Below are positions 6,808 to 24,519 of a DNA stretch of 64,000 nt, piece by piece. A model generated the notes under the pieces. The model was given only the letters and a program-made list of their open reading frames with translations, did not search any database and had not been told where the DNA came from. The translations under genes and the position numbers were made by a program. How positions within the stretch are numbered: position 1 is the first letter of the stretch; each line of letters opens with the position of its first letter. Origin of the DNA: Mangrovibacterium diazotrophicum (lineage in GTDB: Bacteria; Bacteroidota; Bacteroidia; Bacteroidales; Prolixibacteraceae); assembly GCF_003610535.1 (NCBI RefSeq), contig NZ_RAPN01000001.1, positions 1,413,320 to 1,477,319 of the forward strand, read 5' to 3'.

Positions 6808-7797
6808 ATGGAATATTTTGGAACTTTTGGTCTCATTGTAGGAGTTTTTGTCCTCGTAATTATCATCTTATATTTTATCCCTGTTGGACTGTGGTTCTCT
6901 GCGCTTGTTTCAGGCGTTCGAATCTCATTGATTCAACTCTTTTTGATGCGTTTCCGTAAAGTTCCGCCATCAATTATTGTGCGCGCACTAATTGAAGGAA
7001 CAAAGGCCGGTATCAAGCTGGACCGAGATAAACTGGAAGCACACTACCTGGCCGGTGGTAAAGTGGACATGGTTGTTCACGCGCTCGTTTCTGCCGAAAA
7101 AGCAAATATCGATCTTGGCTTCAATATGGCAACTGCCATAGACCTGGCCGGACGCGATGTGTTTGAAGCAGTACAAATGTCGGTAAACCCGAAAGTCATC
7201 GATACTCCCCCGGTAGCTGCCGTTGCTAAAGATGGTATTCAGCTTATTGCCAAAGCCCGTGTTACCGTTCGTGCCAACATCAAGCAATTGGTTGGTGGTG
7301 CCGGAGAAGAAACCATTCTTGCCCGTGTTGGTGAAGGTATTGTATCGTCAATCGGTTCGTCGCATACGCACAAATCCGTATTGGAGAACCCGGATTCAAT
7401 CTCCAAATTGGTGTTGAATAAAGGTTTGGACGCCGGTACAGCTTTCGAAATTCTGTCCATCGATATCGCCGACATCGACATCGGTAAAAACATCGGTGCC
7501 GGTCTGCAAATCGACCAGGCTGATGCGGATAAAAACATCGCCCAGGCGAAAGCAGAAGAACGTCGCGCGATGGCCGTAGCTTTGGAACAGGAAATGCGTG
7601 CAAAAGCACAGGAAGCCCGAGCGAAAGTAATCGAAGCTGAAGCGCAAATCCCGCTGGCTATCTCGGAAGCTTTCAGAAGCGGCAATCTCGGAATTATGGA
7701 TTATATGAAATACAAAAATATTGACGCTGATACGCAAATGCGCTCGTCAATCGCCGGAGAAGATCAAAATCAGAATCGAGGTAAATCGAAAGAGTAA
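6808..7797 (+). CDS. floA: Flotillin-like protein FloA (YqfA type)
   Basis: Scaffold protein of bacterial functional membrane microdomains. Seen: N-terminal membrane segment (about residues 8-30, [19 protein letters not shown]), the conserved [17 protein letters not shown] stretch, the SPFH-like middle ([21 protein letters not shown]), and an Ala/Glu-rich coiled coil near 240-290 ([35 protein letters not shown], quoted in parts by pattern only). Its 329 residues match the YqfA/FloA family. Last gene of the SPOR-clpS-NfeD-floA unit and followed by a good terminator. Confidence 0.95.
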
Positions 7798-7852
7798 TTT
7801 CCCGGTGAAAAGTTCTCTTTTCAAGCTTAATAAACTGATTGTAAATAAACTG

Positions 7853-7884
7853 AAGCCCTGTCTTTTCTCAGATAGGGCTTTTTT
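7853..7884 (+). terminator. Terminator after floA
   Basis: AAGCCCT (7853-7859) pairs with AGGGCTT (7874-7880), 14-nt loop, then a T run to 7884. It lies 56 bp past the floA stop. Confidence 0.8.
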
Positions 7885-7908
7885 ACGAGAAAAGAAAAAC
7901 AACAAATA

Positions 7909-7971
7909 TGCTGCGCAGCACATTTTTTAACATTGGGTTAACAGTTGTTTGTGTTTTTCAGCATATCTTTG
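7909..7971 (+). promoter_or_regulatory. Promoter of sRNA copy 1 (class A)
   Basis: GTTAAC at 7937-7942, a spacer of exactly 21 nt, then TATCTTTG at 7964-7971 (Bacteroidetes -7 form). Upstream is a 12-bp palindrome TGCTGCGCAGCA at 7909-7920, 16 nt ahead of GTTAAC. Copy 4 has the same palindrome (one change) at the same distance, which points to a protein-binding site. The regulator is unknown. Confidence 0.65.
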
Positions 7972-7974
7972 TCG

Positions 7975-8063
7975 TAGATTTTATTTCATAAGTTTAGGTT
8001 TGATTAGTTTTATTGGTTTAGTTAGGTTTGAAAAGGGTAGATAGAGATCTACTCTTTTTTTTT
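7975..8063 (+). ncRNA. Multicopy small RNA, copy 1
   Basis: Predicted ~89-nt RNA with its own promoter just upstream. The sequence from 7967 to 8063 is repeated base for base at 24.4, 26.65 and 29.8 kb (only the T-run length varies). The body has a single C before the terminator and three GGTTTR words (7997-8002, 8015-8020, 8025-8030), so it should be single-stranded. It ends in GGGTAGAT-AGAG-ATCTACTC (8035-8054, 8-bp stem with one G-T pair) and nine T's. There is no ATG-led ORF on the sense strand. The next gene is on the other strand, so this copy cannot be a 5' leader. Boundaries are inferred from promoter and terminator positions. Confidence 0.75.
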
Positions 8064-8282
8064 GCTCTAAACTGAAGAAAGCTCCAAAATTCAGGTTCTA
8101 AATTCCAACGGAAACACCAAAGTTCAAAACACCAAAAAACACGACTATCACCCTGCTGGCATAAGCATGATCTCAATTGTTACTGCCCCTTGAACTTAGC
8201 AAAAAGCACTTCTATTTATTTTTCAGCCTTTCAATCACTTTACAGTCAAAACTCGCACGCTGGTATTCAAAAACATTGACAT
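8064..8282. other. Intergenic, no further feature
   Basis: Beyond a short shared tail GCTCTAAACTGAA that also follows other sRNA copies, I see no ORF, promoter or conserved structure here. Confidence 0.4.
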
Positions 8283-8337: not shown

Positions 8338-9750
8338 CTATTGATACAGCTTGGCTTCCCAGATTCCGGCTTGACCCTCCAAAATCTTTACCCGTAAATA
8401 CCGGGCTTTGCCAATTTTTTCAACCTTGTGCGGCGAACGAATGGCAAGTTCTTTTTGCTCTTTCACGCTTTCCCAGTTCTCGCCGTCAACCGACTTTTCG
8501 CAAATAAACGCATGTCCCAAAGTTGGGTGGACAAAGAAAAGATCCAGGTGATCCAGCTTTTCGACTTTCCCCAAATCCAACTGCCACCATTTCTCGGTAT
8601 CATCCGGACGAGCCCACCAGCGGGTGTAATTCGAATTATCGATAGCATCTTGCGGATTAAACTCGTGATGGCGGTATACCGGCTCCACCGGCAAGTTATA
8701 TTTCAATTGTTTCGGGTCGCCCCATTTACGCGCCTCAACTTCCATCGGCGTTTTAGTCGACGAAGCGGTCGCTACCGCCTTCGATAAGTCCATTGGCTTC
8801 TCCGTCTTCACCTTGGCCAAAGCGCCAACACCTTTTCGATCCAATTGGATTGGCTTTAACGTGCCGTCGTCGTTAAACTCCATCTTGTTGCAGTACACCT
8901 GGCGCGAGGTACCTCCAATTCCGTATTCGAGATAAACGAAATACCAATCGTCAGTTCCTTTCGGTGAAAACGCAAAACCATGGCCAGGCCCCCAAATCTG
9001 TTTCTCCAAATCCGAAGAAATGATCACATCATTCTCAGGAGTCACAAATGGCCCGAGCGGCGATTCTTTGCTCATCAAATAACCATTCTGGTAATCGGCA
9101 TAACCGCCCATGGTATAGAAATAATAGTAAATTCCTTTTCGCTTAATCATGAAAGGACCTTCCGAATAACCGTTCCATTGCGTAGGAATGTCGATCGTCT
9201 CCCCTTCCAGCTTGGTCCAGTCGACACTGAGTTTCGAGGCCTTTTTACGGCGCCAGAAAATATAGCCCTGCCCGTCGTCGTCGATAAACGGACAACCGTC
9301 GATATCATCAATCACCATCGAAGGTTTTTCTTCTCCCGTATAGTTTTCTGGGCCATTAATAAATTTGAAAGGTCCTTCTGGCGAATCGGCAACCGCCAAT
9401 TGGGTCACATGATCAACAGTTACAAAGAGGTAATATTTTCCATCGCGCTCCAACACGCGCCCCGGTGCCCAGTATTTGTGCTCGTGCCAGTCGATTCCGG
9501 GGAAGCAAATCCCTTCGAAGCTCCAGTTCACAAAGTCTTTCGATTTCCACACGACCGGATTTCCTGAAAAAGCCAGGTCGGTTTCAATATCTCCGACATC
9601 ACTGGTGGCATAACAGTAAAACGTATCGCCAAACTGAACGATTGTCGGATCGGCCAGGTTGTCCGGAATAAACGGGTTGAAATCGATTTGCTGAGCGGAA
9701 ACAAGCTCTGCCGCCACTAGCCAAAACAGTACTAAGAAAATTCTCTTCAT
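8338..9750 (-). CDS. Exported GH43 glycosidase with C-terminal F5/8C (CBM32-like) domain
   Basis: Secreted or periplasmic glycoside hydrolase of family 43, whose members are mainly beta-xylosidases, alpha-L-arabinofuranosidases and exo-galactanases. Seen: signal peptide (MKRIFLVLFWLVAAELVSAQ); five-blade propeller catalytic domain with the expected acidic triad by motif: Asp34 in NLADPTIV (base), Asp151 before GCPFIDDDGQGY (pKa modulator) and Glu197 in SEGPFMIKRKG (acid). From about residue 350 a galactose-binding-like domain (AIDNSNYTRWWA ... WWQLDLGKVEKLD) for polysaccharide binding. 470 residues. It is separated from the upstream GH115 gene by a terminator, so it is probably transcribed on its own. 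Exact substrate cannot be read from the sequence. Confidence 0.88.
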   Translation of the reverse strand: MKRIFLVLFWLVAAELVSAQQIDFNPFIPDNLADPTIVQFGDTFYCYATSDVGDIETDLAFSGNPVVWKSKDFVNWSFEGICFPGIDWHEHKYWAPGRVLERDGKYYLFVTVDHVTQLAVADSPEGPFKFINGPENYTGEEKPSMVIDDIDGCPFIDDDGQGYIFWRRKKASKLSVDWTKLEGETIDIPTQWNGYSEGPFMIKRKGIYYYFYTMGGYADYQNGYLMSKESPLGPFVTPENDVIISSDLEKQIWGPGHGFAFSPKGTDDWYFVYLEYGIGGTSRQVYCNKMEFNDDGTLKPIQLDRKGVGALAKVKTEKPMDLSKAVATASSTKTPMEVEARKWGDPKQLKYNLPVEPVYRHHEFNPQDAIDNSNYTRWWARPDDTEKWWQLDLGKVEKLDHLDLFFVHPTLGHAFICEKSVDGENWESVKEQKELAIRSPHKVEKIGKARYLRVKILEGQAGIWEAKLYQ

Positions 9751-9871
9751 GGTTTATTTACAGTTTTTTTGAGTAGAACCGCTAAGATAACGAATCACCG
9801 ATAAATCATAGCCAATCCGTAATCCAGCAATAAGCTCTGCCAAATTATTTAATCAACCAGCTTCGCTCATT

Positions 9872-9905
9872 AAAAACGCAGCATGACTATGCCATGCTGC
9901 GTTTT
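9872..9905 (-). terminator. Terminator of the GH43-GH89-acetyltransferase-GH115 unit
   Basis: Perfect 13-bp stem AAAACGCAGCATG/CATGCTGCGTTTT (9873-9885 with 9893-9905), 7-nt loop, T run on the minus strand, 28 bp past the GH115 stop. Confidence 0.88.
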
Positions 9906-9932
9906 ATGAATATTTGCAATTCACTATTCCAA

Positions 9933-12923
9933 TTACTTTTTTCGGGTTTCAGCCGGGAAAGCATAACTGCCTTTCCAACCTCCCAAATCGATTAAGATCT
10001 GATCCAGCATCACACCCGGATCAACCATCCAAACTTTCAATTGATGTTTTCCAGGCTCTTTAATTGTTTGTTTTGTTGATTTCACGGCGGCATTTTTCAG
10101 CACATTCTGTTTCCACTCGCTGCTGCGACCAACGGTTTTGAAATCGATAATCACGGGCTCTGCATCGTCAATTGCCACAGCGCAACGCACACTTGCTCCC
10201 TCATAAAACGGATGAGTCGGAACAGCCTGAATACGAACATCTGTTTCTCCGGCATTGAACGTATAAAAATCATACGCCAACATCGGGCTTTGCGCTTTGA
10301 TTTCGGCCGGATTTGTTACGGGTTTAGCATTAAATGGCAAAGCCACTACAACACTACCGCTGTATCCTAAACCACCAAACAGTTCCCATTCTGCTCCTTC
10401 ACCGACTGTTCGCGATGAGGCATTTTCAGCATTGATCGACACATAGCCATTGCCCTCAACAAAACCTTCAAAATCTTCCAATTCCTTGAACTTCGGATTG
10501 TAGGCTGAAACACCGATCGTTATTGTTGTATCCTTTGAACTGAATTCAATCGCTCCATTCACTTTATAGGCAGGTGGTATCAATTGGTAATCGTGACCAA
10601 GCGGTGGCTCTATCGTATTTTCACCTTGCGGCACCAGGTTCCAGTCAATGCTTACCCACAAACGTTGCTCCTGCTCTCCGTCCGCTGCAGTCAATTTTCC
10701 ATGATCTGCAGATAGACGGATCCAGTCTTGCTTCGGTTCAGCTTTCCACGCGACCTCTCCTTCCCCTTTCAGAAACACATCCACAAAAGCCGAATCCTTC
10801 AGGTAGGCGTTCAATACCGGCAGCACATCGGCATAGTTGTTTTCGATTTGCTTGTTAGCCTCCATTTCATAACCTTCCAAGGCTAGCCCAAGGCCGGCCT
10901 CTCCATCCGTTGCCGGTAGCGCATATGAAGGTTTCGAGAATACCGGCAAGTTACGGGGCGACATGCTCATCATTTGTTTCCACTTGCCGTTTTGAAGTCT
11001 ATTGTTGAAGTAATCGGTTTCACTTTTAATCTGCTCATAAGCAGCTTTCGACCGGTCAGCAAACTCTTTGGCACTGGCTCTTCCCTGACGTGCAGCCAAT
11101 TCATTTTTGTAATGATACAGCCATTTTTGATTCATCAGCGAAGCGCCTGTTACCGGATAATATACCAGTTCATAAAAAGCGTCCTGCATGCCCATCGGAA
11201 TTTCAGCCTTTAGCTTTTCAACCTGCGAGGAGAGAGCTTCCCAAGCATCCAGCCGCATCGTTAACTCGTCGCTGTACAATATCTGATTCAACTCGGTTGC
11301 TCCCGGCTTTGTGGTTGGTTCGGTTTGGCTCCAGGCCATAAACTCCGGACGACGCATAAAACACAAGTGATAGTAATCCATCATCAGTTTCGTCATCTCA
11401 GGCGCCTTCTCAGCTCCAAACAAGAAACTCAACCAGTCTTCCATGTGTAATTGAACATCCATTGTCCCGGCAAACCTATCAATATCCCAGGCCATATCCA
11501 TAAACAACTCAATGTTGTATTCCAAGGGTTTAATATCTCCACAGTTCAAAATCCACATATCGTGACAGTTGAACTGGTATGCTTTAAACATCTCTTCCCA
11601 GATCAGCATCGGGTTGGTCGAGCTCAGCCACAGGTAGTCGTGCGGGCGTCCCCAGTACGAGGCGTGGTAATAAATTCCACCGCCGCCCGGACGCTTTTGT
11701 TCTTCAGGTGTGCTCAACTGACGGATGTACCCGTAATTGTCATCGGTCCACATTAGCGTCACATCCTCCGGAACCTTCAAGCCATTCTGATAATAATCGA
11801 GTACTTCTTTGTACGGGATAAAAGCTTGCGGCAGCGATTCCGGCTCCTTTCCGGTTTCCTTTTGCATAATTGCACGCTGATCGGCGATCACCTTTTCCAG
11901 TAGTTTAATCTGATCTTCCTTGGTCAGATCCTTGGCATTCATGGGCGAATCGTGCTCACCACGCATGCCAATGGTATAAATACTTTCGAAGTTTGACGTT
12001 GCTTTGGTACGGGCCTCAAACAAATCTCGAATCGTCTCAGCATTGTTGTCATAGCGCCACTCACCCATGGAGTTATGATCCCACTCGGCATTTATATTAC
12101 AAAGCATCGGCTCACAATGCGAAGTTCCTACTACAATCGCATAATCGTTGGCGGTTTGCGCATTGCCTTCAATGGTGTAGAAAGCTTTGGTACAACCATG
12201 CATGGCTGGCCAAACGGTGTTTGCGCGAAGACGCAGCATCAGTTCGAAGATTTTGGCGTAGGTTTTCGGGCCAATGTCGCCGGTTTCCGGTTCAAAAGTT
12301 TTAGCAGCCCAGGGTTGAAGCCCCCAATCTTCGTCATTTAAAAATAAACCACGGTATTTCACCGAAGGCGATCCGTAGGTTTTTGTTTCGATATCGAGGC
12401 TTATTTCCTTCCGTTTGGCGGGTTGAACATCGGCCCACCATTCCCAGGCGGAGACGCCCATCTTATGCGACAACTCCAATATCCCATAGGCCGTTGCCCG
12501 ACGATCGCTCCCGACAATGATCAAGGCTTTTTTGACGCCGGGGAATGGTTTCGTGAGCACTTGTTGTGACCAGCTTTCCCATTTGCCATCGATGGCGGAA
12601 ACATCTATTTTTTTATCAGCAATCAACTGATCGATGAGCGCGTTTTTGCCAATCGTCCCGGCAATGATCAGCTCCGAAGCAGCCTCCGGAAGTTTATGAA
12701 TGATCTGGGGTTGTTGATCCGTGATATTCTTCACATCGCCTGCGTACAATTCAGCAGCTATTGAAACGACTTTCGCCTCATCGGCCGAGATCAAAATGGG
12801 TGTAGCGCTTTTGTTTTGTGAAATTGGAAAGGTATTCATCTCCCCCTTCTTCTGGGCATTTACCTGCAATTGTGTAAACAGGCAACCAATTAGAAAAAGG
12901 GAACTTAAAAATGTTGTTTTCAT
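9933..12923 (-). CDS. GH115 family glycosidase (alpha-glucuronidase type)
   Basis: Exported enzyme of family GH115, known members of which remove (4-O-methyl-)glucuronic acid from xylan and related acidic glycans. Seen: signal peptide from the ATG at 12923 (MKTTFLSSLFLIGCLFTQLQ, ending VNAQ); the frame extends upstream to 12977 but without a signal-like start. The N-terminal alpha/beta domain (about 30-170) precedes the long catalytic region with YRGLFLNDEDWGLQPWA, RLRANTVWPAMHG, GTSHCEPML, GMRGEHDSPM and GGIYYHASYWGRPHDYLW, all GH115 hallmarks; a C-terminal beta-sandwich follows from about 800. 996 residues, normal for the family. Last gene of the four-gene unit, 100 bp after the acetyltransferase. 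The cognate polysaccharide is inferred only as a glucuronate-bearing glycan. Confidence 0.93.
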   Translation of the reverse strand: MKTTFLSSLFLIGCLFTQLQVNAQKKGEMNTFPISQNKSATPILISADEAKVVSIAAELYAGDVKNITDQQPQIIHKLPEAASELIIAGTIGKNALIDQLIADKKIDVSAIDGKWESWSQQVLTKPFPGVKKALIIVGSDRRATAYGILELSHKMGVSAWEWWADVQPAKRKEISLDIETKTYGSPSVKYRGLFLNDEDWGLQPWAAKTFEPETGDIGPKTYAKIFELMLRLRANTVWPAMHGCTKAFYTIEGNAQTANDYAIVVGTSHCEPMLCNINAEWDHNSMGEWRYDNNAETIRDLFEARTKATSNFESIYTIGMRGEHDSPMNAKDLTKEDQIKLLEKVIADQRAIMQKETGKEPESLPQAFIPYKEVLDYYQNGLKVPEDVTLMWTDDNYGYIRQLSTPEEQKRPGGGGIYYHASYWGRPHDYLWLSSTNPMLIWEEMFKAYQFNCHDMWILNCGDIKPLEYNIELFMDMAWDIDRFAGTMDVQLHMEDWLSFLFGAEKAPEMTKLMMDYYHLCFMRRPEFMAWSQTEPTTKPGATELNQILYSDELTMRLDAWEALSSQVEKLKAEIPMGMQDAFYELVYYPVTGASLMNQKWLYHYKNELAARQGRASAKEFADRSKAAYEQIKSETDYFNNRLQNGKWKQMMSMSPRNLPVFSKPSYALPATDGEAGLGLALEGYEMEANKQIENNYADVLPVLNAYLKDSAFVDVFLKGEGEVAWKAEPKQDWIRLSADHGKLTAADGEQEQRLWVSIDWNLVPQGENTIEPPLGHDYQLIPPAYKVNGAIEFSSKDTTITIGVSAYNPKFKELEDFEGFVEGNGYVSINAENASSRTVGEGAEWELFGGLGYSGSVVVALPFNAKPVTNPAEIKAQSPMLAYDFYTFNAGETDVRIQAVPTHPFYEGASVRCAVAIDDAEPVIIDFKTVGRSSEWKQNVLKNAAVKSTKQTIKEPGKHQLKVWMVDPGVMLDQILIDLGGWKGSYAFPAETRKK

Positions 12924-13023
12924 GTTGAATAGTTTCTTGGTAATTGTAGAGTAATTGAAAAGCCTGAAAATACACAAACTTTCATCGTGACCGAAATGGA
13001 TTCTCCCGAAATGGTTTTAAAAA

Positions 13024-14166
13024 CTAGATTTTGATGTAGATCTTTCTTCTGTTCAGCCACCAGCCAAGCGCCCAACAGAGCAAAACGTAGGCAATAGCGG
13101 TTACCAGCGAACCAAAAGATCCGGGAAAGGCGCGTTGAAAAACGGCCTCGCTCACCCACTCAAATGCATCCAGATTCCGGATAACCGGGATCATCCGCAG
13201 AACCACATAAAACAGTTCTGAAAAGAGGTATATGAAGAGTGGATTTTTGCCAAAGACGTCAAAAAAATTGACTCCAACCCGAATGCTCTTCATTTCAATC
13301 CAATAAATCAGCACCGCCATAATCGAAAGATCCAATCCGACGGTATACAATACAAAGGAACTTGTCCACAGCTTCTTAGAGATTGGGAAAACCAAATCCC
13401 ACCAAAGTGCCAGCGAGCACATGAGGAAGCCAGTCATCAACAGCATCGCGAGTCCCTCAAACGACTTTCCTTTTTTCTGGATGAAAACACCAGCCAAGTA
13501 ACCCCACAGTACGTTGACAATTGACGGTAGCGTACTCAGCACACCTTCCGGGTCGAAGGGAATGGCATCTTTTTTATAAATATGCCCGATTCCCAGGATT
13601 GACAGGTCGAAGCGACTGCCAGCATTGGTCGCCATGTCCAACCAAGCCCCGGGTTCGCCGAATGCGTACAAAATCCCCCAGTAAGCTAATAAGATTACTG
13701 CCGAAATAGTAATCGCTGCTCGCTCCGACAAGTATAAAACAATGATGGATGCGAAGAAATAACAGAGGGCGATCCGCTGCAATACGCCCATAATCCGGGT
13801 TTCAGCAATCGGTTTCCAAAGGAACGATCCATCAGTGCCGAACTTGAAAAACGGGAACCAATACATCAGGTAGCCTAACAGGAAAATAATGACTGTTCGT
13901 TTGATGATCTTCGTCCAAACCTCGCCTGTCGACATGCTTTTCATCTTTTTCATCGAAAAGCTCATCGCGTTTCCTACGGCAAATAAAAAGGACGGGAACA
14001 CCAGGTCGGCCAGTGTAAAGCCGAGCCATTTTGTGTGGATGAGAAAAGCATAATTGCTGGCGCCGGTTCCGGGTGTGTTCACCAAGATCATCAATACAAT
14101 GGTGAGCCCCCGAAAAACATCGAGCGACAGAAAACGCCCCGCGGAATATTTGGCTGCATCTTCCAT
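13024..14166 (-). CDS. HGSNAT/NagX-like membrane acetyltransferase (DUF5009)
   Basis: Polytopic inner-membrane protein related to heparan-alpha-glucosaminide N-acetyltransferase, which carries acetyl from cytoplasmic acetyl-CoA across the membrane to terminal alpha-glucosamine. Seen: 380 residues, about ten to eleven hydrophobic helices; family signature SLDVFRGLTIVLMILVN at about 14-30, then IHTKWLGFTLADLVFPSFLF at about 43-62. By context His44 corresponds to the histidine thought to be catalytic in the human enzyme. The frame could open with TTG at 14172 but the ATG at 14166 is better. It begins 2 bp after the stop of the GH89 alpha-N-acetylglucosaminidase gene, implying coupled expression. 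In lysosomes the two corresponding enzymes act one after the other; the same coupling here is inference. Confidence 0.88.
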   Translation of the reverse strand: MEDAAKYSAGRFLSLDVFRGLTIVLMILVNTPGTGASNYAFLIHTKWLGFTLADLVFPSFLFAVGNAMSFSMKKMKSMSTGEVWTKIIKRTVIIFLLGYLMYWFPFFKFGTDGSFLWKPIAETRIMGVLQRIALCYFFASIIVLYLSERAAITISAVILLAYWGILYAFGEPGAWLDMATNAGSRFDLSILGIGHIYKKDAIPFDPEGVLSTLPSIVNVLWGYLAGVFIQKKGKSFEGLAMLLMTGFLMCSLALWWDLVFPISKKLWTSSFVLYTVGLDLSIMAVLIYWIEMKSIRVGVNFFDVFGKNPLFIYLFSELFYVVLRMIPVIRNLDAFEWVSEAVFQRAFPGSFGSLVTAIAYVLLCWALGWWLNRRKIYIKI

Positions 14167-14168
14167 TA

Positions 14169-16403
14169 TCAATAGTTGTAGTTAATTACCGGCAAAGTTT
14201 GCGTCATCGGTGCAATCCGATCGCGGTATTTTTGGTAGAACTCCATGGCAACTTCCGTTGAGCTACCTTTTGCTTCTTGTGGGAATTCCTTTTGCGTTGT
14301 CACCCAATTCCATTCCCATTGCCTGATTTCTGCATCGAAAGCCTCCTGATCAAAGTTGCCCCAATGCTTGCTCACTTCCGTGAAAAATTGCTCCCACCGT
14401 GGCTTATAAAAATCAGTTAGCAGGCCGCTCCACTGGCGGTTACTGTATTCGTGCAAGCGATTGTCAGCTCCGCCCCAAAGGGTAATCAAATCCCGGGCAT
14501 TCTGCTCGTACAGGGCTTTTTCTTCCGGTGTTGTTCCCCAGCTGCGCGCGTCGGCAATCCAGGGCCCCAACAGGAAATCCTTTCGGGTAGCCAGCAAACG
14601 ATCCAAATCATCAATAAGCTCCAAAAACTCACGCCTGTATTGGCCGAATTTCTCTTTGTCATTGTTCTTGTAAGCGGCTGTTATCTGTTGCTGAAGCGGC
14701 AGCGCGTAATTCGCCAACACCTGTCGGGTCACATCGACCAAATCATATTGGAAACCGTCAGATGTGCCAAAGTCTGAACTCGCCTGAACAAACAAATCCC
14801 AGGCTGACAAAAGATCCACCGGAGCATAATTTAGTTTGGTGCGTGCCCAACGTCGATAGCCCTCAAAGGTTGGACGGGAAACAATGATTGACTCGGCTCC
14901 ATCACGGATCACCTGCCCGTTGTATACGGTTTGCACTAAAATATCCCAGGCTTTTTCGATATCGGCATTCGTACTGCCATAGCGGTTTCGGATGTATTTC
15001 TGCAACCACTCCTTCAAATCAATTGGAGTATCGCGCCAGGTATTGTCGGTCATCAACTCGTAAAGAACGGGCGTTTGCTCAACCGCTTCCATCGTCAAAC
15101 CGATTCCTTTTAGCTGGCCTGAAGTTGAATCCTTCAGCGCTTCTGCAGGATGTTCGGCCACATTCTCAATCCGTCCAAACAGGCTGATATTACCACCGAA
15201 ATTATGCAACATACACCAAATCCATTCTTTGCCGTAGAAGGCCTCGGTGCGTTTCCAAACCGGTTCAATTTCAGCAGCCAGGTCCAGAATAATCATCCGG
15301 TCGTTGGGAACAGCGCCCAACAAGCCTTGAATTTGCGGGGCTTTCCAGAAATCGCGGTGACTGTAGAACAACCAGCCTTGCATTACCCAAACCGCATCGG
15401 GATCGGCCGACTTCATTCCTTCAAAAACCTTGGCACTTAATTCCGACAGGTATTGCGGATCGTCCGAAGGAGGTTCATTCTCATTAAAGGTATCGGCTGA
15501 ATACAAATGATCGGTCCCGTAAATTTCTTGTTGAACTTCCAGGAATTTCTTGCCGATTTCGGCAAACAACGGATCATCGGCATCCAAAATGTAGGTATCG
15601 TCAAAATCGTTGCCCCAGTTCGTCTGTTTCAAGTTCGCATCAGGAAAATATTTTTTGAAGGAAGCCGGAACATGCCCGGTGAACGCTGGTAAAACGGACT
15701 TCATTCCCAACTCGCGTTCGCGCTGTAAGATCTTTTTCTGCAACTCGCGGTGGCTGTCTTTCCAGCTTTTGGGCAACTGTCCTCCCCAGCCATCGAGGTT
15801 GCCCATCCAAAACCAACCAAAATAGGCAGGTCCGCTGAAAAACGGATCCAGATCATCGTCGGTAAACCCGTACGAACGGTACACTTCATCCCAAATCGAC
15901 TCTTCTCCCGTAATGGCCAGCGGCATGTTGATGCCATGCAACGCCATCCAGTCAATTTCCTTCTCCCAGCGCTCCCAATCCCACCAACTCATGGTGTAGT
16001 TGAAGGTGCAGTAATTCAAATAATAGCGATATTCGTAAGGACTGTCTTTGTGTACTTTTTCTGGAATAACCGGCAATGTTTCCGGTAAATTCAAATTCGT
16101 GCCGTTCCAGGTAATCTGACAATGACAATATTCCGTCAGGTAAAAATACAAAGCCGAAGCAACTGAAACTCCGTTGTTTCCTCGAAGCACGATTTTGCCC
16201 CCTTTCGATTCCAACTCAAACCAGTCGGTAGAGTCGGAAGCAAGAATCTCAACTTCAAATTCATTGGCCCGACCCGGAATAATGCGTTGGATCAACTCTC
16301 GCTCGGGACTGGATTCGTTTACCTCCGCCTTCTGCGTTTGGCACCCAACATACAAAAGGGCGACTACTCCAATTAATAAAATCTTTCTTAAGCTTTCACG
16401 CAT
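14169..16403 (-). CDS. GH89 alpha-N-acetylglucosaminidase, lipoprotein
   Basis: Exo-acting enzyme that releases terminal alpha-linked GlcNAc from glycans (NAGLU family). Seen: ATG at 16403 starting a lipoprotein signal with Cys21 after LLYVG; TIM-barrel catalytic domain with ITGEESIWDEVYRSYG, DTFNENEPPSDDPQYL and GLTMEAVEQTPVLYELM. Glu308 in DTFNE and Glu439 in TMEAVEQ sit 131 residues apart, matching the 130-residue spacing of the catalytic pair of human NAGLU (Glu316/Glu446). 744 residues, full length for the family. Second gene of the unit, 25 bp after the GH43 gene and 2 bp before the acetyltransferase. As an outer-membrane or periplasmic lipoprotein it should work on imported oligosaccharides or at the cell surface. 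Confidence 0.94.
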   Translation of the reverse strand: MRESLRKILLIGVVALLYVGCQTQKAEVNESSPERELIQRIIPGRANEFEVEILASDSTDWFELESKGGKIVLRGNNGVSVASALYFYLTEYCHCQITWNGTNLNLPETLPVIPEKVHKDSPYEYRYYLNYCTFNYTMSWWDWERWEKEIDWMALHGINMPLAITGEESIWDEVYRSYGFTDDDLDPFFSGPAYFGWFWMGNLDGWGGQLPKSWKDSHRELQKKILQRERELGMKSVLPAFTGHVPASFKKYFPDANLKQTNWGNDFDDTYILDADDPLFAEIGKKFLEVQQEIYGTDHLYSADTFNENEPPSDDPQYLSELSAKVFEGMKSADPDAVWVMQGWLFYSHRDFWKAPQIQGLLGAVPNDRMIILDLAAEIEPVWKRTEAFYGKEWIWCMLHNFGGNISLFGRIENVAEHPAEALKDSTSGQLKGIGLTMEAVEQTPVLYELMTDNTWRDTPIDLKEWLQKYIRNRYGSTNADIEKAWDILVQTVYNGQVIRDGAESIIVSRPTFEGYRRWARTKLNYAPVDLLSAWDLFVQASSDFGTSDGFQYDLVDVTRQVLANYALPLQQQITAAYKNNDKEKFGQYRREFLELIDDLDRLLATRKDFLLGPWIADARSWGTTPEEKALYEQNARDLITLWGGADNRLHEYSNRQWSGLLTDFYKPRWEQFFTEVSKHWGNFDQEAFDAEIRQWEWNWVTTQKEFPQEAKGSSTEVAMEFYQKYRDRIAPMTQTLPVINYNY

Positions 16404-16428
16404 GTTTTTAAGATTATATGGTGTGAAA

Positions 16429-17415
16429 TCAGAAGTTTGCAACGCCGCTTGGCCGTACTTTCAAGATGTTGAGATTTACATCAAAATTCAGGCTGTCGAC
16501 ACACAACTGACGCAAAACATAGGCTGAATCCTGCGGGAAAATCCGGTGATACAACATGTAATCCTGATTGCCCTCGCGAAATACAGAATGGTGACCGGGG
16601 CCGTATGTTGTGCTATCGGCTGAAGTCTCCAAAATGGGGCTGTTGACGCCCGTTTCAAATGGTCCCAAAGGCAAATTTCCAACAGCATAGCCGACTTTGT
16701 AAGTCGCATCAATGGCTTTTCCCGACGAATACATCAGGTAATATTTTCCGAAGCGTTTAATCATATAAGGCGCTTCAAAATAGTCCGGTGGCGTAACGTC
16801 AATCGGTTCCTCCCGAAAAGTTATCATATCGGGATTCAGCTTTGCCGCCATACAAATACCATTGATCCAATGAAAGCCTGATCCCCAGTAGAGATAGGCC
16901 TGACCATCGTCGTCGATAAAGCAATCTGCATCGATGTTGTGCACTTTGGGAAAATCTGCGGCAGCCACCAACGGAGAGTCATCTTCTTTGGCATTCTTCC
17001 AGGGTCCCAGCGGAGAATCACTCACACCCGCCCAAATTTCGCTACCAACCGAAACGTACATGTAGTATTTGCCATTGGCCGCTTTTCGGACAGAAGGCGC
17101 CCAAACCATCGAACTATTGGAACTCGGACTTGTACAAGCCGTCTTCGTTGGCCAGTTTAAATGATGCCGATCGAAAGTCAGAAAGTCTTTGGTTGAAAAA
17201 ACGGCCAGTTCATCGCCGCCCCAGGGATCGATTGTCGCATAAATATAAAAGGTATCTCCATCCTTGATGACGCAGGGATCAGCAAAATAGCCATCGATAA
17301 TTGGATTGGTGATTAACTGCGGCTGTTCGGAATTTTGCTTTTTTGGCGATCCTGTACAAGCAGTCAATCCGATTGCCACAAACAGAAATAAAATGTGTGC
17401 TCTTATCTTTTTCAT
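16429..17415 (-). CDS. GH43 family glycosidase, lipoprotein
   Basis: First gene of the minus-strand unit GH43-GH89-acetyltransferase-GH115. Seen: start ATG at 17415 with lipoprotein signal (Cys20 in GLTAC; the ORF is open to 17442); single five-blade propeller domain with the triad by motif: Asp46 in GYFADPCVI, Asp162 in HNIDADCFIDDDGQAYLYW, Glu214 in YFEAPYMIKRFGKYYLMYSSG. 328 residues, so no accessory binding domain. Relatives include alpha-L-arabinofuranosidases and beta-xylosidases; substrate not determined. No clear TAnnTTTG promoter was found in the 680 bp upstream. Confidence 0.9.
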   Translation of the reverse strand: MKKIRAHILFLFVAIGLTACTGSPKKQNSEQPQLITNPIIDGYFADPCVIKDGDTFYIYATIDPWGGDELAVFSTKDFLTFDRHHLNWPTKTACTSPSSNSSMVWAPSVRKAANGKYYMYVSVGSEIWAGVSDSPLGPWKNAKEDDSPLVAAADFPKVHNIDADCFIDDDGQAYLYWGSGFHWINGICMAAKLNPDMITFREEPIDVTPPDYFEAPYMIKRFGKYYLMYSSGKAIDATYKVGYAVGNLPLGPFETGVNSPILETSADSTTYGPGHHSVFREGNQDYMLYHRIFPQDSAYVLRQLCVDSLNFDVNLNILKVRPSGVANF

Positions 17416-18098
17416 AAATATTGGTTTTATCGTCAGTTTCATGGTTATTTCGAATGGGAATTTGAGCGAACAAGTTCCTCGTTGCAGAGATAAATCTTCC
17501 GACTAATATTCCCTGCCATTAAAGCTGTTCTACTTTGTCGATAGTTCACAATCATTCAAATGGCTGGAAAAACAAGGATTAAAACTTGTGCGCAATACGC
17601 GCCAACTGTGCAAAGTCATAATAGCCCTTCATTTCTATAACGACACATCAATTACGAAGAAATCTGCCCTAGAACAAGTCCTTATTTCTGACGTTGTCAT
17701 TCCAGCACTTAACAAAGATCGCGAATCATCAATTCAAATAACGATGCTCGATATTATTACGAAGAAGTTGACATTCTCCCCCAAAGGAAAATCAGAAAAA
17801 ATTTAAATTTTGTGCGAATTGCCGCTTCGATGAAAGAAGAATTGAGAAAACAAAGAGACACCTAAACTTACAGTGTCTAATTTTTAGGTACAGTTTTCAA
17901 GAATATTTTGCCCGGAACCGGGTGCTTCGACTTAACAACAGAATCTCATCGTGTTTCAATCTGCACTCCTTGTCAATTCAAGATATTCCCCACCACAAAA
18001 AAACTATGCAAAATATAATGTACCGAAGCCATAGTGATTTCACAGGAACAGGTGTTCTAAGGCCTGCAAAACAGAATACAGTTAACGAAACGAAAACG
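17416..18098. other. Intergenic region upstream of the GH43-GH89 unit
   Basis: About 680 bp between the rarA 3' end and the GH43 start, both on minus. Two small ORFs (17588-17806 and 17922-18128, plus) lack homology-like features and I do not call them. At 17856-17878 a stem AGACAC/GTGTCT (11-nt loop) competes with ACCTAAA/TTTAGGT (17860-17866 with 17883-17889), so two exclusive structures are possible. No convincing -7 element was seen for the glycosidase unit. Confidence 0.35.
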
Positions 18099-19370
18099 CT
18101 AATAACGCTTTTTCCACCAATTCTTTAAACGCTCTAATATCTTCAATTCGGAAGCGTTATTCTGCGGAATATAAAAGCGCTCTTTCTTCATTTGCTCGGG
18201 CAGAAAGTCCTGCTCGGCGAAATTGCCGTCGTAAGCGTGGGCATATTTGTATTCTTTGCCGTAGCCCAGTTCTTTCATCAATTTGGTTGGCGCATTGCGA
18301 ATGTGCAGCGGCACCGGCAAATCACCAGTACGTTGCACCGTTGCCAGCGCTTTGTTGATAGCTTCGTAGGCCGAATTACTCTTGGGCGACGTTGCCAGGT
18401 AGATGGTACATTCCGATAAAATAATCCGCGATTCGGGATGACCAATCTGGTGCACGGCATCGAAGGTGCTTTGAGCTAAAAGCAGGGCGTTCGGATTAGC
18501 CAGTCCAACGTCTTCGGCTGCCAAAATCAATAACCGTCGGGCGATGAACTTGACGTCTTCACCACCATCAATCATGCGCGCCAGCCAATACACAGCCGCA
18601 TCCGGATCGCTTCCGCGGATACTTTTGATAAAAGCCGAAATGATGTCGTAGTGCATTTCGCCATTCTTATCGTAAGTGCGCAGGTTGTTTTGAAGTCGCT
18701 TGGTTACTTTATCGTTAGTGATTTCAATCGTATCGCTTTCTTCGGCATTTACAACAAGCTCCAATACATTCAGCAACTTACGGGCATCACCTCCTGAGAA
18801 ACGGAGCAATGCTTCGTATTCCTTCAGGTCGATTTGCTTGTTCTTCAGCTCCACATCTTTCTCGAAAGCATTCTCGAGCAGTCGCAGCAAATCATCTTTC
18901 TCCAAGTGTTTGAGAATATAAACCTGGCAGCGCGACAGCAATGGCGAAATCACTTCGAACGAGGGATTTTCGGTTGTCGCACCAATCAAGGTCACGACGC
19001 CCTGTTCAACAGCCCCAAGTAATGAATCCTGCTGTGCTTTACTAAAGCGGTGAATCTCGTCGATAAATAAAATCGGGTTGGCACGACTGAAGAACTGTTG
19101 TTTTTGAGCCTTATCAATCACATCGCGTACGTCCTTCACCCCCGAGCTAATCGCGCTCAAAATATGAAAAGGCCGATCGAGCGTGTTGGCAATAATTTTG
19201 GCCAAAGTGGTTTTTCCCACACCTGGAGGTCCCCATAAAATGAGTGAAGAAATATTACCGGAGTCGATCATCTTGCGCAAAACAGCTCCCTGTCCGACAA
19301 GGTGCTCCTGCCCGATGTAATCGTCCAGTTTTTTCGGACGTAACCGCTCTGCCAAAGGCTGTAAACTCAT
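18099..19370 (-). CDS. rarA: Replication-associated recombination protein RarA (MgsA)
   Basis: Clamp-loader-like AAA+ ATPase acting at stalled forks and gaps. Seen: RPKKLDDYIGQEHLVG at the N-terminus, Walker A GPPGVGKTT at 47-55, Walker B FIDEIHRF at 102-109, GATTENPSFEV sensor region, and the C-terminal tetramerisation/lid part with PESRIILSECTIYLATSPKSNSAY and a tail ending FYIPQN. 423 residues, full length. It follows a small membrane protein gene with a 2-bp gap, itself 20 bp after the TPR gene, so the three are probably one transcript. Confidence 0.96.
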   Translation of the reverse strand: MSLQPLAERLRPKKLDDYIGQEHLVGQGAVLRKMIDSGNISSLILWGPPGVGKTTLAKIIANTLDRPFHILSAISSGVKDVRDVIDKAQKQQFFSRANPILFIDEIHRFSKAQQDSLLGAVEQGVVTLIGATTENPSFEVISPLLSRCQVYILKHLEKDDLLRLLENAFEKDVELKNKQIDLKEYEALLRFSGGDARKLLNVLELVVNAEESDTIEITNDKVTKRLQNNLRTYDKNGEMHYDIISAFIKSIRGSDPDAAVYWLARMIDGGEDVKFIARRLLILAAEDVGLANPNALLLAQSTFDAVHQIGHPESRIILSECTIYLATSPKSNSAYEAINKALATVQRTGDLPVPLHIRNAPTKLMKELGYGKEYKYAHAYDGNFAEQDFLPEQMKKERFYIPQNNASELKILERLKNWWKKRY

Positions 19371-19372
19371 GC

Positions 19373-19594
19373 TTAAAGGTGACGACGTTGAATTTCGTTA
19401 TGATACTTGTAAAACTTTCGGGCAACAAAAATAAACGGAATACCGACAACCAAAATATAAGCAAAATGCAGTTTGTAGGTAATGATTATCGCCATTCCGG
19501 CAAATACAGCAAGAACCCCGAAAAAAGCAATCGGCCGGAACTTGGCCATTTTATCCAGCAAATCCGAATTACTCAGTTTTTTTACGTCTTCCAT
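19373..19594 (-). CDS. Small membrane protein, unknown function
   Basis: 73 residues. Two hydrophobic segments (about residues 22-39, IAFFGVLAVFAGMAIII, and 43-59, FAYILVVGIPFIFVA) flanked by a charged N-terminus (MEDVKKLSNSDLLDKMAKF) and a basic tail (RKFYKYHNEIQRRHL), so both ends are likely cytoplasmic. I recognise no family. The 2-bp gap to rarA and short gap from the TPR gene support it being a real, co-transcribed gene. Confidence 0.7.
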   Translation of the reverse strand: MEDVKKLSNSDLLDKMAKFRPIAFFGVLAVFAGMAIIITYKLHFAYILVVGIPFIFVARKFYKYHNEIQRRHL

Positions 19595-19614
19595 AGGTCA
19601 AAATATAGTTCAAA

Positions 19615-21597
19615 TTAATTACAGTAGCGTTTAATGATGTTGTAAGCGTCTTCAATTCCAAGTTCCCCTGCTTTACTCAAGTCCATCGCTCCCCCCTCAA
19701 CATCGTCCAGGTAAATCTTTGTTAACCCGCGGTTGAAGTAAGCCTCCGCAAAATCGGGTTGCAGCTCAATGGCTTTGTCCAGGTTGCTCATCGCTTCATC
19801 ATATTTATCCAGCTTACACAAAACATACGCTTTGTTGTAGTAAACAAACGGGAATGCCGGATTGATTTTAATACAGCGCTCGTAGTCTGCCAAAATCTCT
19901 TTGTAATCGTTCAGATTTTCTTTCTTCACCGTCTGATTATTCGGCGAGTCCGCTCCAATCGAGATCGTCATATCCTGCGACAGATCCGGTACAGCCTCCA
20001 GAATTTCAACCATCTTAATCCGGCAATTGGCTCGACTGTAGAAGGCAATCAGGTTTTTGCTGTCCAGCTTCAAACTTTTATTAAAATCCTCGATGGCGTC
20101 GTTATACTGATTGGTCAGGAATTTGAAGATCCCCCGGCTCAAATAGTTTTCCGACGACTCGTTTGTTTTTATTTTTTCGTTGAAATACAGAATATTATTC
20201 TTGAAACTATCCGCAAAGTCGGCAGTTTCATGGTTTGTAATAGTCATCTGCGGACTGTAGTTGTTGTATTTATTCAGCTCTTCCAGCGCCAGGTTGTAAT
20301 ACTGCAAACGCTCGTAATTCACCGAGTTCTCGCTGAATGATGCAATCCGGAAGATCGGTTGCAGCTCGATAATCACGTTTTTATTCTGGATTCGTCCGTC
20401 TTCTACGTCCTCTTCGTAATTCGGCAATTCGCGGGTATCCGCCAACGACAGGCGGAAGCGTCGGCGATCCTTCTCGGCTTGCTCATCTTTCGCTTTTTGA
20501 TCGTCATCCTTCTCTTGATCGTTCGCTTTTTGTTGCTGTGTATTCTGAGCCAATGCCTGTCCTTGCCCCTGAGCTTGAGACTGTGTTTGTGCTTGTCCCT
20601 GGTTCTGGTTCTGGCTCTGAGTTTGCGACTGCCCACCTTGTTGTTGTTGTTGTTGTTGTTGCTGTTGTTGTTTTTGCAGCTGAGCGTAGTATTCCTCTTC
20701 GGTTGGGCGCCGTTTGACATCCAGCTTCGGATCCAGTTTGGCCGCTATGCGGTAATCTTCCTCGAAACCGGGTAAGCCTAACACTTCCTTGGCAATTCCC
20801 CGGTTAAAATAAGCATTCGGCATCGTCGGGTCCAGTTGCAGTGCCAGGTCGTAATCCATGATCGCACCCTGAAAATCCTCCAACCGTTGTTTGACAATCC
20901 CGCGGTTATTGTAAGCGTAGGCATTTTGCGGATCGAGCTTGATGGTTTGATCGAAATCACGCAATGCCGAAGCAAAATCATTCATTTCAAAGCGGGCCAA
21001 TCCGCGCAGCAAGTATGCACTGGCAAAGTGTGGCCGAATAATAATCGCCTTGTTCAAGTCACGGATTGCCTCTGTTAAATCTCCTTTGACAATATTCGCA
21101 TTACTGCGATTGATGTAGGCATTCACAAAATTAGGGTTGGCCTCCAGTGCGGCGTCGTAATCGGCAATCGCTCCGTCAACATCTTTCATCGAGATTTTCG
21201 CAATCCCCCGGTTATTGTAGATGGCTGCGTTTCGGGGCGAAAGTTCCAACGCTTTATCGTAGTCGGCAATAGCATTGGCATATTCGTGCAGCGACAAATG
21301 CGCGAGGCCCCGGTTCATGTAAGCATCCGGGTAATAGGGCTTAATTTCGATCGCTTTATCGTAATCGGCAATGGCACCCCTGTAGTCATCCAACTGGTGC
21401 TTGGCAAGTCCCCGCAAGAAATAGGGCTCCGGAAGTTGAGGCTTAAATTTGATGACAATATTAAAATTCTCAATCGCCCCAACATAATTCGCAGTCGAAA
21501 TCCGGGTTTGCCCAACACGGATATAATGATTGATATTGAGCTGTGCCGAAGCAACCGAACTCAACAAAACAAGTATGATAAACAATCTGAATTTCAT
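19615..21597 (-). CDS. Exported TPR-repeat protein with poly-Q linker
   Basis: 660 residues. Signal peptide MKFRLFIILVLLSSVASAQ, then about eight tetratricopeptide repeats with the regular 34-residue pattern (YNNRGIAK ... AIADYDAALEANP) up to about residue 290. Next a low-complexity linker from about 300: a run of eleven glutamines, then a Q/S/N/G/A-rich stretch and an acidic-basic block. A second TPR block fills the C-terminal half (SRGIFKFLTNQYNDAIEDFNKSL, YNKAYVLCKLDKYDEAMSNLDKAI by pattern). Such proteins scaffold complexes in the periplasm; no specific partner can be named. The CAA/CAG tract (20638-20670) is a likely length-variable site. Confidence 0.82.
   Translation of the reverse strand: MKFRLFIILVLLSSVASAQLNINHYIRVGQTRISTANYVGAIENFNIVIKFKPQLPEPYFLRGLAKHQLDDYRGAIADYDKAIEIKPYYPDAYMNRGLAHLSLHEYANAIADYDKALELSPRNAAIYNNRGIAKISMKDVDGAIADYDAALEANPNFVNAYINRSNANIVKGDLTEAIRDLNKAIIIRPHFASAYLLRGLARFEMNDFASALRDFDQTIKLDPQNAYAYNNRGIVKQRLEDFQGAIMDYDLALQLDPTMPNAYFNRGIAKEVLGLPGFEEDYRIAAKLDPKLDVKRRPTEEEYYAQLQKQQQQQQQQQQQGGQSQTQSQNQNQGQAQTQSQAQGQGQALAQNTQQQKANDQEKDDDQKAKDEQAEKDRRRFRLSLADTRELPNYEEDVEDGRIQNKNVIIELQPIFRIASFSENSVNYERLQYYNLALEELNKYNNYSPQMTITNHETADFADSFKNNILYFNEKIKTNESSENYLSRGIFKFLTNQYNDAIEDFNKSLKLDSKNLIAFYSRANCRIKMVEILEAVPDLSQDMTISIGADSPNNQTVKKENLNDYKEILADYERCIKINPAFPFVYYNKAYVLCKLDKYDEAMSNLDKAIELQPDFAEAYFNRGLTKIYLDDVEGGAMDLSKAGELGIEDAYNIIKRYCN
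20638..20670. repeat. Trinucleotide repeat (poly-Gln codons)
   Basis: Eleven consecutive TTG/CTG triplets on the plus strand, read as CAA/CAG on the coding minus strand. Only one triplet breaks perfect CAA repetition. Changes by whole triplets would keep the frame. Confidence 0.85.
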
Positions 21598-21697
21598 AGG
21601 GTGGCCAATTTACGAAGAGCAAAAATAATATTTTAGCCCGGTATCACCTGTTTTAAGTATTTTTATCTTGATTTCAATTTTTTAACAACTCAATACA

Positions 21698-22270
21698 ATG
21701 GAGAATCGATGTGATTGGTGTTTGAAAGATGATTTGTACCGTGACTACCACGACCAGGAATGGGGAGTTCCCGTTTACGATGATAAAATTCTGTTTGAAT
21801 TTTTAATTCTAGAGGGCGTGCAAGCCGGTCTCAGCTGGCATACCGTGTTAAAGAAACGAGAAAACTACCGCAAAGCCTACGATGACTTTGATTACAAGAA
21901 AGTAGCCACTTACGACGAAGTTAAAGTGGCAGAGCTTTTACTAAATAAGGGACTCGTCAGAAACAAACTGAAGATTGCGGCCAGCATTACCAATGCCCAA
22001 CAGTTTCTGAAAGTCCAGGAAGAATTCGGCTCCTTCTCGAACTACATTTGGGGATTCGTCGATCACAAACCAATCATTAATCACTTCCAAAGCCTGAAAG
22101 AAGTCCCGGCAACAACGGCTATTTCAGATGCAATAAGCAAAGACATGAAAAAGCGGGGATTTAAATTTGTCGGATCCACGATTGTTTATGCGCACATGCA
22201 GGCCACCGGAATGGTCAACGATCATTTGGTGGGTTGTTTCCGGCATAAGGAAGTAATGTGTAATGAGTAA
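21698..22270 (+). CDS. tag: DNA-3-methyladenine glycosylase I
   Basis: Base-excision repair enzyme that removes 3-methyladenine from alkylated DNA. Seen: 190 residues; zinc ligands Cys5, His18, His176 and Cys180 at the spacing of E. coli Tag (4, 17, 175, 179); Glu39 in LILEGVQAGLSW as the base-recognition acid; helix-hairpin-helix region in the middle. Divergent from the TPR gene and read alone; convergent with the GGCT-fold gene. Start ATG is the only good one and gives the canonical MENRCDWCLKDDLY beginning (family R-C-x-W). Confidence 0.95.
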   Translation: MENRCDWCLKDDLYRDYHDQEWGVPVYDDKILFEFLILEGVQAGLSWHTVLKKRENYRKAYDDFDYKKVATYDEVKVAELLLNKGLVRNKLKIAASITNAQQFLKVQEEFGSFSNYIWGFVDHKPIINHFQSLKEVPATTAISDAISKDMKKRGFKFVGSTIVYAHMQATGMVNDHLVGCFRHKEVMCNE

Positions 22271-22324
22271 TGAGACGCGATTGTGCTGTTTTCTGTTTCT
22301 CGCCGTTTGGCAAGCAGATTTGCT

Positions 22325-22954
22325 CTAATTCATTAATTCCTTCAATTCGGAGACGGTGTAATTGCCAGAAATGCCAGGCTGAGCAGCAAGATAAGTGGCA
22401 ATCTCCTCGTTTCCGAATTTGTAGGTTTCTTTCAAGCCTTTAATGATAGTTCGCAAGTATGCATGCCCGGGCTTCCTCAGTAGTTGTTCATCCTTTTCAA
22501 AAGTAAAGGTGAAGATCGGAAAGCCATCGTGCCGGCCCAAACAGAGAATGCGGCCATACCAGGCGTTTTCTTTCAACAAGTCACTCCCCTTGGTTTCGAT
22601 CCGATCAAAATCAATCCGAATTTTCTCGTCAGTGTCCATTTCCTGCGCCATTACTTCACAAAACTGTCCTTCAGTAATCAGGAACATTCGGCCGTAAGTT
22701 TTGGAAGAGCCATTTGTCGGTTTCCCGATAAAGGCAACACCGCCTCCAGCCCAGGTTTGCGACTCTCGTGCAAAATACAACTGACGATTGATGTCAACGG
22801 GTTTACTACTCAATGGCAACGACCGATCGGAGCATCCTCGACAAGATCTCAGGGCACCTTCCGGACGTCCACCAAGCAGGTAACACCTGAATCGACTTTC
22901 CAATAAATTGGAGCCATAACTGGCATACCAAACGTATTGCTTTTCGTTACTCAT
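22325..22954 (-). CDS. Gamma-glutamylcyclotransferase-fold protein
   Basis: 209 residues. The N-terminus WYASYGSNLLESRFRCYLLGG carries the YGSN substrate loop of the GGCT/AIG2-like fold. The rest (GGVAFIGKP, TYGRMFLITEGQF, ENAWYGRILCLGRHDGFPIFTFT) matches a bacterial subgroup sometimes mislabelled histone deacetylase. Expected chemistry is cyclisation of a gamma-glutamyl amine, but the substrate is not known, and I cannot assign the catalytic glutamate with confidence. Monocistronic by context, ending about 50 bp from the convergent tag gene. Confidence 0.65.
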   Translation of the reverse strand: MSNEKQYVWYASYGSNLLESRFRCYLLGGRPEGALRSCRGCSDRSLPLSSKPVDINRQLYFARESQTWAGGGVAFIGKPTNGSSKTYGRMFLITEGQFCEVMAQEMDTDEKIRIDFDRIETKGSDLLKENAWYGRILCLGRHDGFPIFTFTFEKDEQLLRKPGHAYLRTIIKGLKETYKFGNEEIATYLAAQPGISGNYTVSELKELMN

Positions 22955-23003
22955 TCTTCGAAGCCGGATTTTTTGTTTTTTATGGCGGGTATCCCAAAAC
23001 TAC

Positions 23004-23052
23004 AAAAAAAACTTCTCCCTGCCCTCGTCTGTGCAATGCAGAAACGAGGGCA
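23004..23052 (-). terminator. Terminator after the third GH43 gene
   Basis: Perfect 9-bp stem TGCCCTCGT/ACGAGGGCA (23044-23052 with 23020-23028), then 8 nt and a run of eight T's on the minus strand (23004-23011). It starts 12 bp past the GH43 stop. Confidence 0.7.
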
Positions 23053-23063
23053 GAAAGTAGAAT

Positions 23064-24427: not shown

Positions 24428-24516
24428 AAAAAAAAAGAGTAGATCTCTATCTACCCTTTTCAAACCTAACTAAACCAATAAAACTAATCAAACCTAAACT
24501 TATGAAATAAAATCTA
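24428..24516 (-). ncRNA. Multicopy small RNA, copy 2
   Basis: Same body as copy 1 without a base change; terminator stem 24437-24444 with 24449-24456 and nine T's (24428-24436). Unlike copy 1 it lies upstream of a same-strand gene (GH43, start 24140), so read-through into that gene is conceivable, but the terminator is strong. The 3' flank lacks the GC dinucleotide seen after the T run in copies 1, 3 and 4. Confidence 0.75.
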
Positions 24517-24519
24517 CGA

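Follow-up and report, generated by a model that had tools for sequence, protein, structure and literature searches.

The analysed window is a 64,000-nt stretch of the Mangrovibacterium diazotrophicum genome. Its floA gene (6808–7797, plus strand; Pfam FloA) lies upstream of a 97-nt block on the same strand at 7967–8063 (copy 1), which extends from the end of a -7 promoter element to a T run. Three other copies were returned when 7881–8140 was compared with the window by blastn, at 96.5–98.2% identity over 109–173 nt. They lie on the minus strand at 24428–24524 (copy 2), 26648–26744 (copy 3), and 29770–29866 (copy 4), and each was recovered by blastn, alignment, and a covariance-model match. 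The model match of copy 1 covered 7975–8062 with 85.2 bits.

The first-pass annotation had described a four-copy family of small RNAs with identical cores and diverged flanks. Blastn and alignment bore this out, as the 97-nt block was unbroken and identical in all four window copies from CTTTG to the T run and the flanks had diverged. The identity had been said to begin with the -7 element, which was correct from CTTTG onward; the element itself is TACCTTTG in copy 3, at 26.65 kb, and TATCTTTG in the other three. The family size of four was likewise right for the window, and six convincing copies were counted in the genome. The fifth is near-identical and one T shorter (C6:39641-39763, minus strand, on another contig), and the sixth is diverged (C1:63854-63936, minus strand). 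An identical 91-nt stretch is common to five of the copies; their pairwise gapped identity fell to 0.60 in both flanks and stood at 0.74 over the 60 nt that precede the block. In coordinate order the window copies end in T runs of 9, 9, 10, and 9, and the fifth copy in one of 8. Copies 2 to 4 are probably dispersed duplicates, whose identity would be due to selection, conversion, or youth.

A seventh model match in the genome (C1:3344458-3344545, plus strand, 48.7 bits) had neither promoter nor seed, lay at the 3' end of an ORF, and was not accepted as a member. At this site (about 1500–1590 of L061), a GTTTAGTTTAGG-rich stretch runs from the ORF stop codon into a terminator and resembles the sRNA body; it is perhaps a 3' UTR relative.

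Gene architecture

TAnnTTTG precedes CATAAG in every window copy, and all four show the terminator hairpin with 9–10 T's described earlier. The promoter of copy 1 (7927–7971, plus strand) consists of tandem TTAAC motifs (7927–7942) and the TATCTTTG -7 element (7964–7971), and it matched the scanned pattern exactly, with further support from the 141-copy consensus. The same element was located on the minus strand before copy 2 (24520–24564, 2 mismatches), copy 3 (26740–26784, 2 mismatches), and copy 4 (29862–29906, 1 mismatch).

The textbook sigma-ABfr consensus has TTTG at -33. Set against this consensus, the sRNA promoters contain TAnnTTTG and have a conserved TTAAC at -33 in place of TTTG, with a second TTAAC 11 bp further upstream. 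With the end of TAnnTTTG as the reference point, 86 of 141 distinct copies had TTAAC at -45 and 76 had it at -34, a spacing of one helical turn. The tandem pair of copy 1 reads TTAACATTNNNTTAAC; it occupies the same place before the other copies and is conserved before most family copies. Scanning the genome for the TTAAC element together with TAnnTTTG (≤2 mismatches) gave seven sites, five at sRNA copies and two elsewhere, and none for the reversed control; as the pattern was derived from the copies, the scan shows only that few other promoters share the element. The tandem element suggests a shared regulator acting at the TTAAC repeat, presumably in response to an inducing signal.

The intrinsic terminator of copy 1, hairpin and T run, was placed at 8030–8063 (plus strand) by its own fold and by the consensus fold. 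The latter contained the terminator helix only and left a 5' region of about 60 nt unpaired. In the hairpin, letters vary while pairs are kept, with changes on both sides in 6 of 11 pairs. Folding the single sequence added two further weak stems, one of which covers some of the seed; the fold as a whole had z -2.4. The claim that each copy has its own promoter and terminator was upheld by the promoter architecture recurring in the 141 copies and by this covariation.

The alignment comprised 39 of 50 extracted copies, near-identical ones and one false double being left out. TTCATARGTTTRG was almost invariant, and the most conserved part of the RNA was UUCAUARGUUURG. After the invariant part the sequence varies in form, for example GTTTGATTAGTTTTATTGGTTTAGTTAG or GTTTAGTTAGGTTAGTTAGTTTAG, and TTTAGTTAG-like units differ in number. 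The predicted seed of copy 1, the TTTTATTTCATAAGTTTAGGTT region at 7980–8000 (plus strand), is antisense to AAAYTTATGAAA susC start regions and is found at the same place in the other copies. A conserved ORF was not seen in the alignment, in agreement with the earlier statement. A coding peptide was rejected, as the conserved sense strand has no ATG and one-base indels separate the copies. These features are best read as small-RNA genes of one family, each equipped with a promoter and terminator of its own and presumably transcribed.

Distribution and genomic setting

By blastn (E ≤0.001), the block was found in 34 of 61 genomes, that of M. diazotrophicum included; these were 34 of 37 Prolixibacteraceae and 0 of 24 other families of the order, each represented by one genome. 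A covariance model built from 39 copies matched 40 of 41 Prolixibacteraceae genomes and 23 of 23 genera, with 1–12 matches each at E ≤0.001, counts that take in weak matches near 45–50 bits. A draw of 395 genomes from the phylum, assumed to include Bacteroidaceae and searched with stricter filters, gave one marginal match among the 394 beyond the own genome; it was rejected, and the model had no convincing match outside Prolixibacteraceae. One candidate, G081 (45 bits), showed a GTTTAG-rich lead into a terminator at an ORF 3' end, had neither promoter nor seed, and was not taken as a member.

When named genomes were scanned for exact matches to a degenerate pattern, 61 stretches were returned. 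The records that name a genus belong to Mariniphaga, Mangrovibacterium, Sunxiuqinia, Draconibacterium, Maribellus, Tangfeifania, Prolixibacter, and Gaoshiqia, all Prolixibacteraceae of the order Marinilabiliales; the remaining records name only the family, Bacteroidales, or Bacteroidota. Tandem arrays of 2–5 matches, mostly about 170–290 nt apart, were present in 25 of the 61 stretches, and in the arrays examined every copy had a promoter and a terminator. Identity of the RNA was 0.88 within a locus versus 0.785 between loci, and that of the promoters 0.73 versus 0.67; with kinship not removed, these values point to concerted evolution in a suggestive way only.

The block had earlier been matched to no named family, and Rfam likewise gave no hit for it at gathering score. 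Over the window only a tRNA was found at this score, and the 12 matches around copy 1 (7850–8150, E up to 10) were weak, unrelated, and all below it.

The copy filter passed 55 of 61 named loci and 27 of 29 loci of relatives, some of them cut by contig ends. Of these, 33 named loci and 12 loci of relatives have floA no more than 3 kb upstream in the same orientation, at a median distance of 193 nt. Neighbour clustering returned the same gene, floA, in 34 loci. The site just downstream of floA is the usual site of the sRNA, often as a tandem array. Because copy 1 follows floA, as in many relatives, it is probably at the ancestral site. floA serves here only as positional context. Beside the minus-strand copies lie GH43, pseudouridine synthase, glyoxalase, META-domain, and RapZ-like genes, with no common theme. 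The part of the window between copies 1 and 2 (8338–24140) carries glycan-degradation genes (three GH43, GH115, NAGLU).

A dispersed mobile or repeat element with chance promoter- and terminator-like ends could also leave identical copies, here found within 22 kb and on a further contig, and the tandem arrays of relatives. This explanation is very improbable. The terminator pairs covary; moreover, a Pfam scan of 20 window proteins near the copies found no transposase, the position after floA is kept across genera, and the phage and plasmid collections and IMG/VR (exact pattern) gave no match. On the last three grounds, a transposon or repeat end was rejected; the match by which the first-pass annotation would have been refuted, to the end of a known transposable element, was looked for and not seen.

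Complementarity to SusC start regions

The conserved UUCAUARGUUURG is antisense to the start regions AAAYUUAUGAAAA of SusC mRNAs, and the conserved 5' part, when reverse-complemented, reads AAACCTAAACTTATGAAA, which resembles an A-rich initiation region. The genome contains 56 SusC genes (TIGR04056 matches), and many of the 30 inspected starts read AAAYTTATGAAAA. This 13-mer had 24 sites in the genome, its reversed form 2. The sRNA gene at C1:63.9 kb accounts for one of the 24; of the remaining 23, 19 stand before SusC genes on the list, 12 of which belong to the 30 inspected and 7 to the 26 uninspected. As the 13-mer was picked with 30 of the 56 starts in view and a gene number of 4,700 was assumed, the tiny hypergeometric value is not to be taken at face value. 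One more AAAYTTATGAAAA site precedes an apparent unlisted SusC. A SusC-like protein with a AAATTTATGAAAA start, outside the 56 listed matches, was seen at C1:2507642 (L111).

Patterns derived from the sRNA itself were also scanned. The G-U-tolerant pattern RRRYYTRRRYTTRTGAA gave nine sites, namely six sRNA copies and three others, two of which are at start codons; the reversed control gave one. The 14-mer CTAAACTTATGAAA (≤1 mismatch) was not enriched in the genome, with 8 non-sRNA sites versus 12 for the reversed control. Six of these 8 coincide with a start codon or lie directly ahead of one, and SusC-, FecR-, SusD-, and GH10-like genes are among the genes concerned (labels of this kind, here and below, come from reading the translations).

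The motif AAAY(T/C)TATGAA was present in 14 of the 30 own SusC starts and in 0 of 324 control genes. Elsewhere it was found in 8 of 30 SusC genes of four other sRNA-bearing genomes and in 0 of 25 in genomes without the sRNA; one of the four, G033, had it in none of its 8 SusC starts. Within the window, the start region of the GH43 gene at 16429–17442 (17396–17455, minus strand) is a weak candidate target with a 3-mismatch match to the antisense seed, and its ATG is probably at 17413–17415, inside the match.

Predicted pairing energies

The SusC energy tests covered 30 of the 56 own SusC genes and 30 SusC genes in four relatives. RNAduplex of the sRNA 5' part with the 30 own starts gave a mean best energy of -21.1 kcal/mol versus -16.6 kcal/mol for dinucleotide-shuffled sRNAs, and 0 of 60 shuffles was as good. 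The 324 control genes gave -16.1 versus -15.3 kcal/mol with 20 such shuffles. In the position scan (40 shuffles; 100 of the 324 control genes), the energy excess was confined to the SusC start codon (z -5.85) and the position immediately before it (z -2.8), and other positions within 180 nt ranged between z -1.8 and +1.4. An energy scan within the window alone found equally low energies inside genes and did not discriminate targets.

Four other genera, each tested with its own sRNA, gave z -5.8 (8 SusC), -4.0 (7), -2.1 (8), and -7.6 (7). The value of -2.1, from G033, is weak, with 3 of 100 shuffles as good. The window's sRNA gave z -3.1, -3.8, -1.1 (G033), and -5.1 in the same four. Predicted start-codon pairing recurs clearly in three of the four other family genomes and weakly in the fourth. 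In five genomes of the order without the sRNA (absence by blastn in four and by covariance model in one), the window's sRNA was paired with 25 SusC genes, that is, 25 of 30 loci after five G048 loci below the SusC cut-off were left out, and gave z -0.8, -0.8, -0.3, -2.75 (G043), and -0.4. The diverged U-rich own copy scores in two sRNA-less genomes, G038 (z -3.3) and G407 (z -2.2). Genomes that lack the RNA still show some pairing signal, but a weaker one. SusC genes are paralogues, and a shared leader does not amount to independent observations; energy and motif data, taken from small samples of such paralogues, support SusC pairing without proving it.

These data also bear on the explanation that the sRNA pairs with other important targets, the susC leaders being conserved for translation initiation and their match being incidental or secondary. 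Gene starts of Bacteroidota are generally A-rich, control genes lean slightly in the same direction (z -1.65 at the start codon), some SusC sets from sRNA-less genomes score as well, and further sites precede FecR-, SusD-, GH10-, and GH43-like genes. We nevertheless consider it unlikely, since the motif separates SusC from control genes and shuffled sRNAs that keep the dinucleotide composition fall short of the real value.

Comparison with known sRNAs

FopS of Bacteroides thetaiotaomicron is reported to have 14 copies, to bind close to the start codon of susC, to repress susC translation in vitro, to be bound and counteracted by the RRM protein RbpB, to share its R1/R1' seed sequence with GibS, and to be conserved within Bacteroidaceae (PMC11697453). 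Both sets, as FopS is described there, are multicopy paralogous sRNAs with TAnnTTTG-type promoters and an unpaired 5' region that carries a conserved seed and precedes a terminator; both have a target near the susC start codon at the head of operons of polysaccharide utilisation loci (PULs), predicted in the present case, and RRM proteins in the cell, of which two are encoded here with binding only putative (PMC11697453). The multicopy character extends from the six convincing copies of the own genome to the matches in 40 of 41 family genomes. FopS is described from Bacteroidaceae (PMC11697453), whereas the present RNAs belong to Prolixibacteraceae. The latter also differ in frequent tandem arrays beside floA, in the upstream TTAAC repeat, and in a predicted seed that spans the start codon of about a third of SusC genes.

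No FopS-named Rfam match to 7850–8150 was found at E up to 10, the presence of FopS in the Rfam copy being unconfirmed. FopS was compared by description, and the present RNAs resemble it in those features that a sequence can reveal; on that comparison they are provisionally placed as a new RNA family of a FopS-like kind. A search of the open-licence literature found no description of the RNA family.

GibS of B. thetaiotaomicron resembles the present RNAs in a conserved, long single-stranded 5' seed that pairs around start codons; it differs in its length of about 145 nt, its PM2 promoter, its two seeds, and its targets BT_0771 and BT_3893 (PMC7366714). Rfp18 of Flavobacterium psychrophilum is likewise described as a conserved sRNA of Bacteroidota that is predicted to pair with several related mRNAs, but it has a strong secondary structure, pairs through its third stem-loop with protease targets, and its deletion lowers target mRNA (PMC9723704).

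Proposed function

We regard it as likely that these are trans-acting, FopS-like sRNAs of Prolixibacteraceae, about 80–95 nt long, which pair across susC start codons and block translation. Gene architecture, conservation, and complementarity at the SusC start support this reading computationally. Each copy would be transcribed from a TAnnTTTG promoter with the shared tandem TTAAC upstream element, giving an RNA whose first 60 nt or so are unstructured and whose 3' part is an intrinsic terminator. UUCAUARGUUURGRUUU would pair across the start codon of mRNAs with the leader AAAYUUAUGAAAA, chiefly those of SusC, the TonB-linked glycan transporter, from many PULs. The annealed 5' end would block ribosome loading, so that translation of susC would not be initiated and the predicted sign of regulation would be repression. 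Near-identical copies would raise the dosage, and paralogues differing in the seed and in the number of TTTAGTTAG units may widen the target range. The remainder of the RNA is rich in UAG and may be a binding site for one of the genome's two RRM proteins. Beyond the first-pass annotation, this reading adds likely targets, the susC start regions, and a closest known analogue, FopS.

A broader reading is held tentatively, as a possibility we would not yet favour. It takes the RNAs to be a family-wide brake that arose convergently and independently of FopS, has its own TTAAC regulator, and controls simultaneously how dozens of competing systems for glycan uptake are translated, its seed being the antisense of one initiation sequence in about a third of SusC genes. 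If true, this would be a case of convergent evolution of PUL-wide riboregulation in Bacteroidota. A second such RNA family outside Bacteroidaceae, in other Bacteroidota that degrade polysaccharides, would suggest that RNA control of whole glycan-transporter sets is a general strategy of the phylum. The system offers a defined candidate regulon, cultured relatives, an RNA family with no Rfam match, and a candidate regulator site in the TTAAC repeat.

The unpaired region, with its variable number of TTTAGTTAG units, also fits a protein-titrating RNA, in which conserved UUUAGUUAG/GUUAGG units would sequester an RRM protein as CsrB does CsrA. RbpB is reported to bind the 5' part of FopS (PMC11697453) and a GUAGGAUA probe (as cited in PMC12119571), and the genome encodes two RRM proteins. 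The most conserved part, on the other hand, is the CATARGTTTRG seed rather than the repeat units, and a pure sponge leaves the start-codon complementarity unexplained; titration as the main function is thus quite unlikely, and base pairing and RRM titration may coexist. That the UAG-rich units bind RRM proteins is a guess.

GUUAG and UAGU in the sRNA presumably resemble eukaryotic RRM sites such as those of Musashi. Both RRM proteins of the genome have Gly/Arg-rich tails, and one lies beside a cold-shock-like ORF. The gene of the latter was seen at 1489–2079 of L052 (contig C5, at about 211 kb), where the RRM protein with its Gly/Arg-rich tail is directly followed by the small cold-shock-like ORF.
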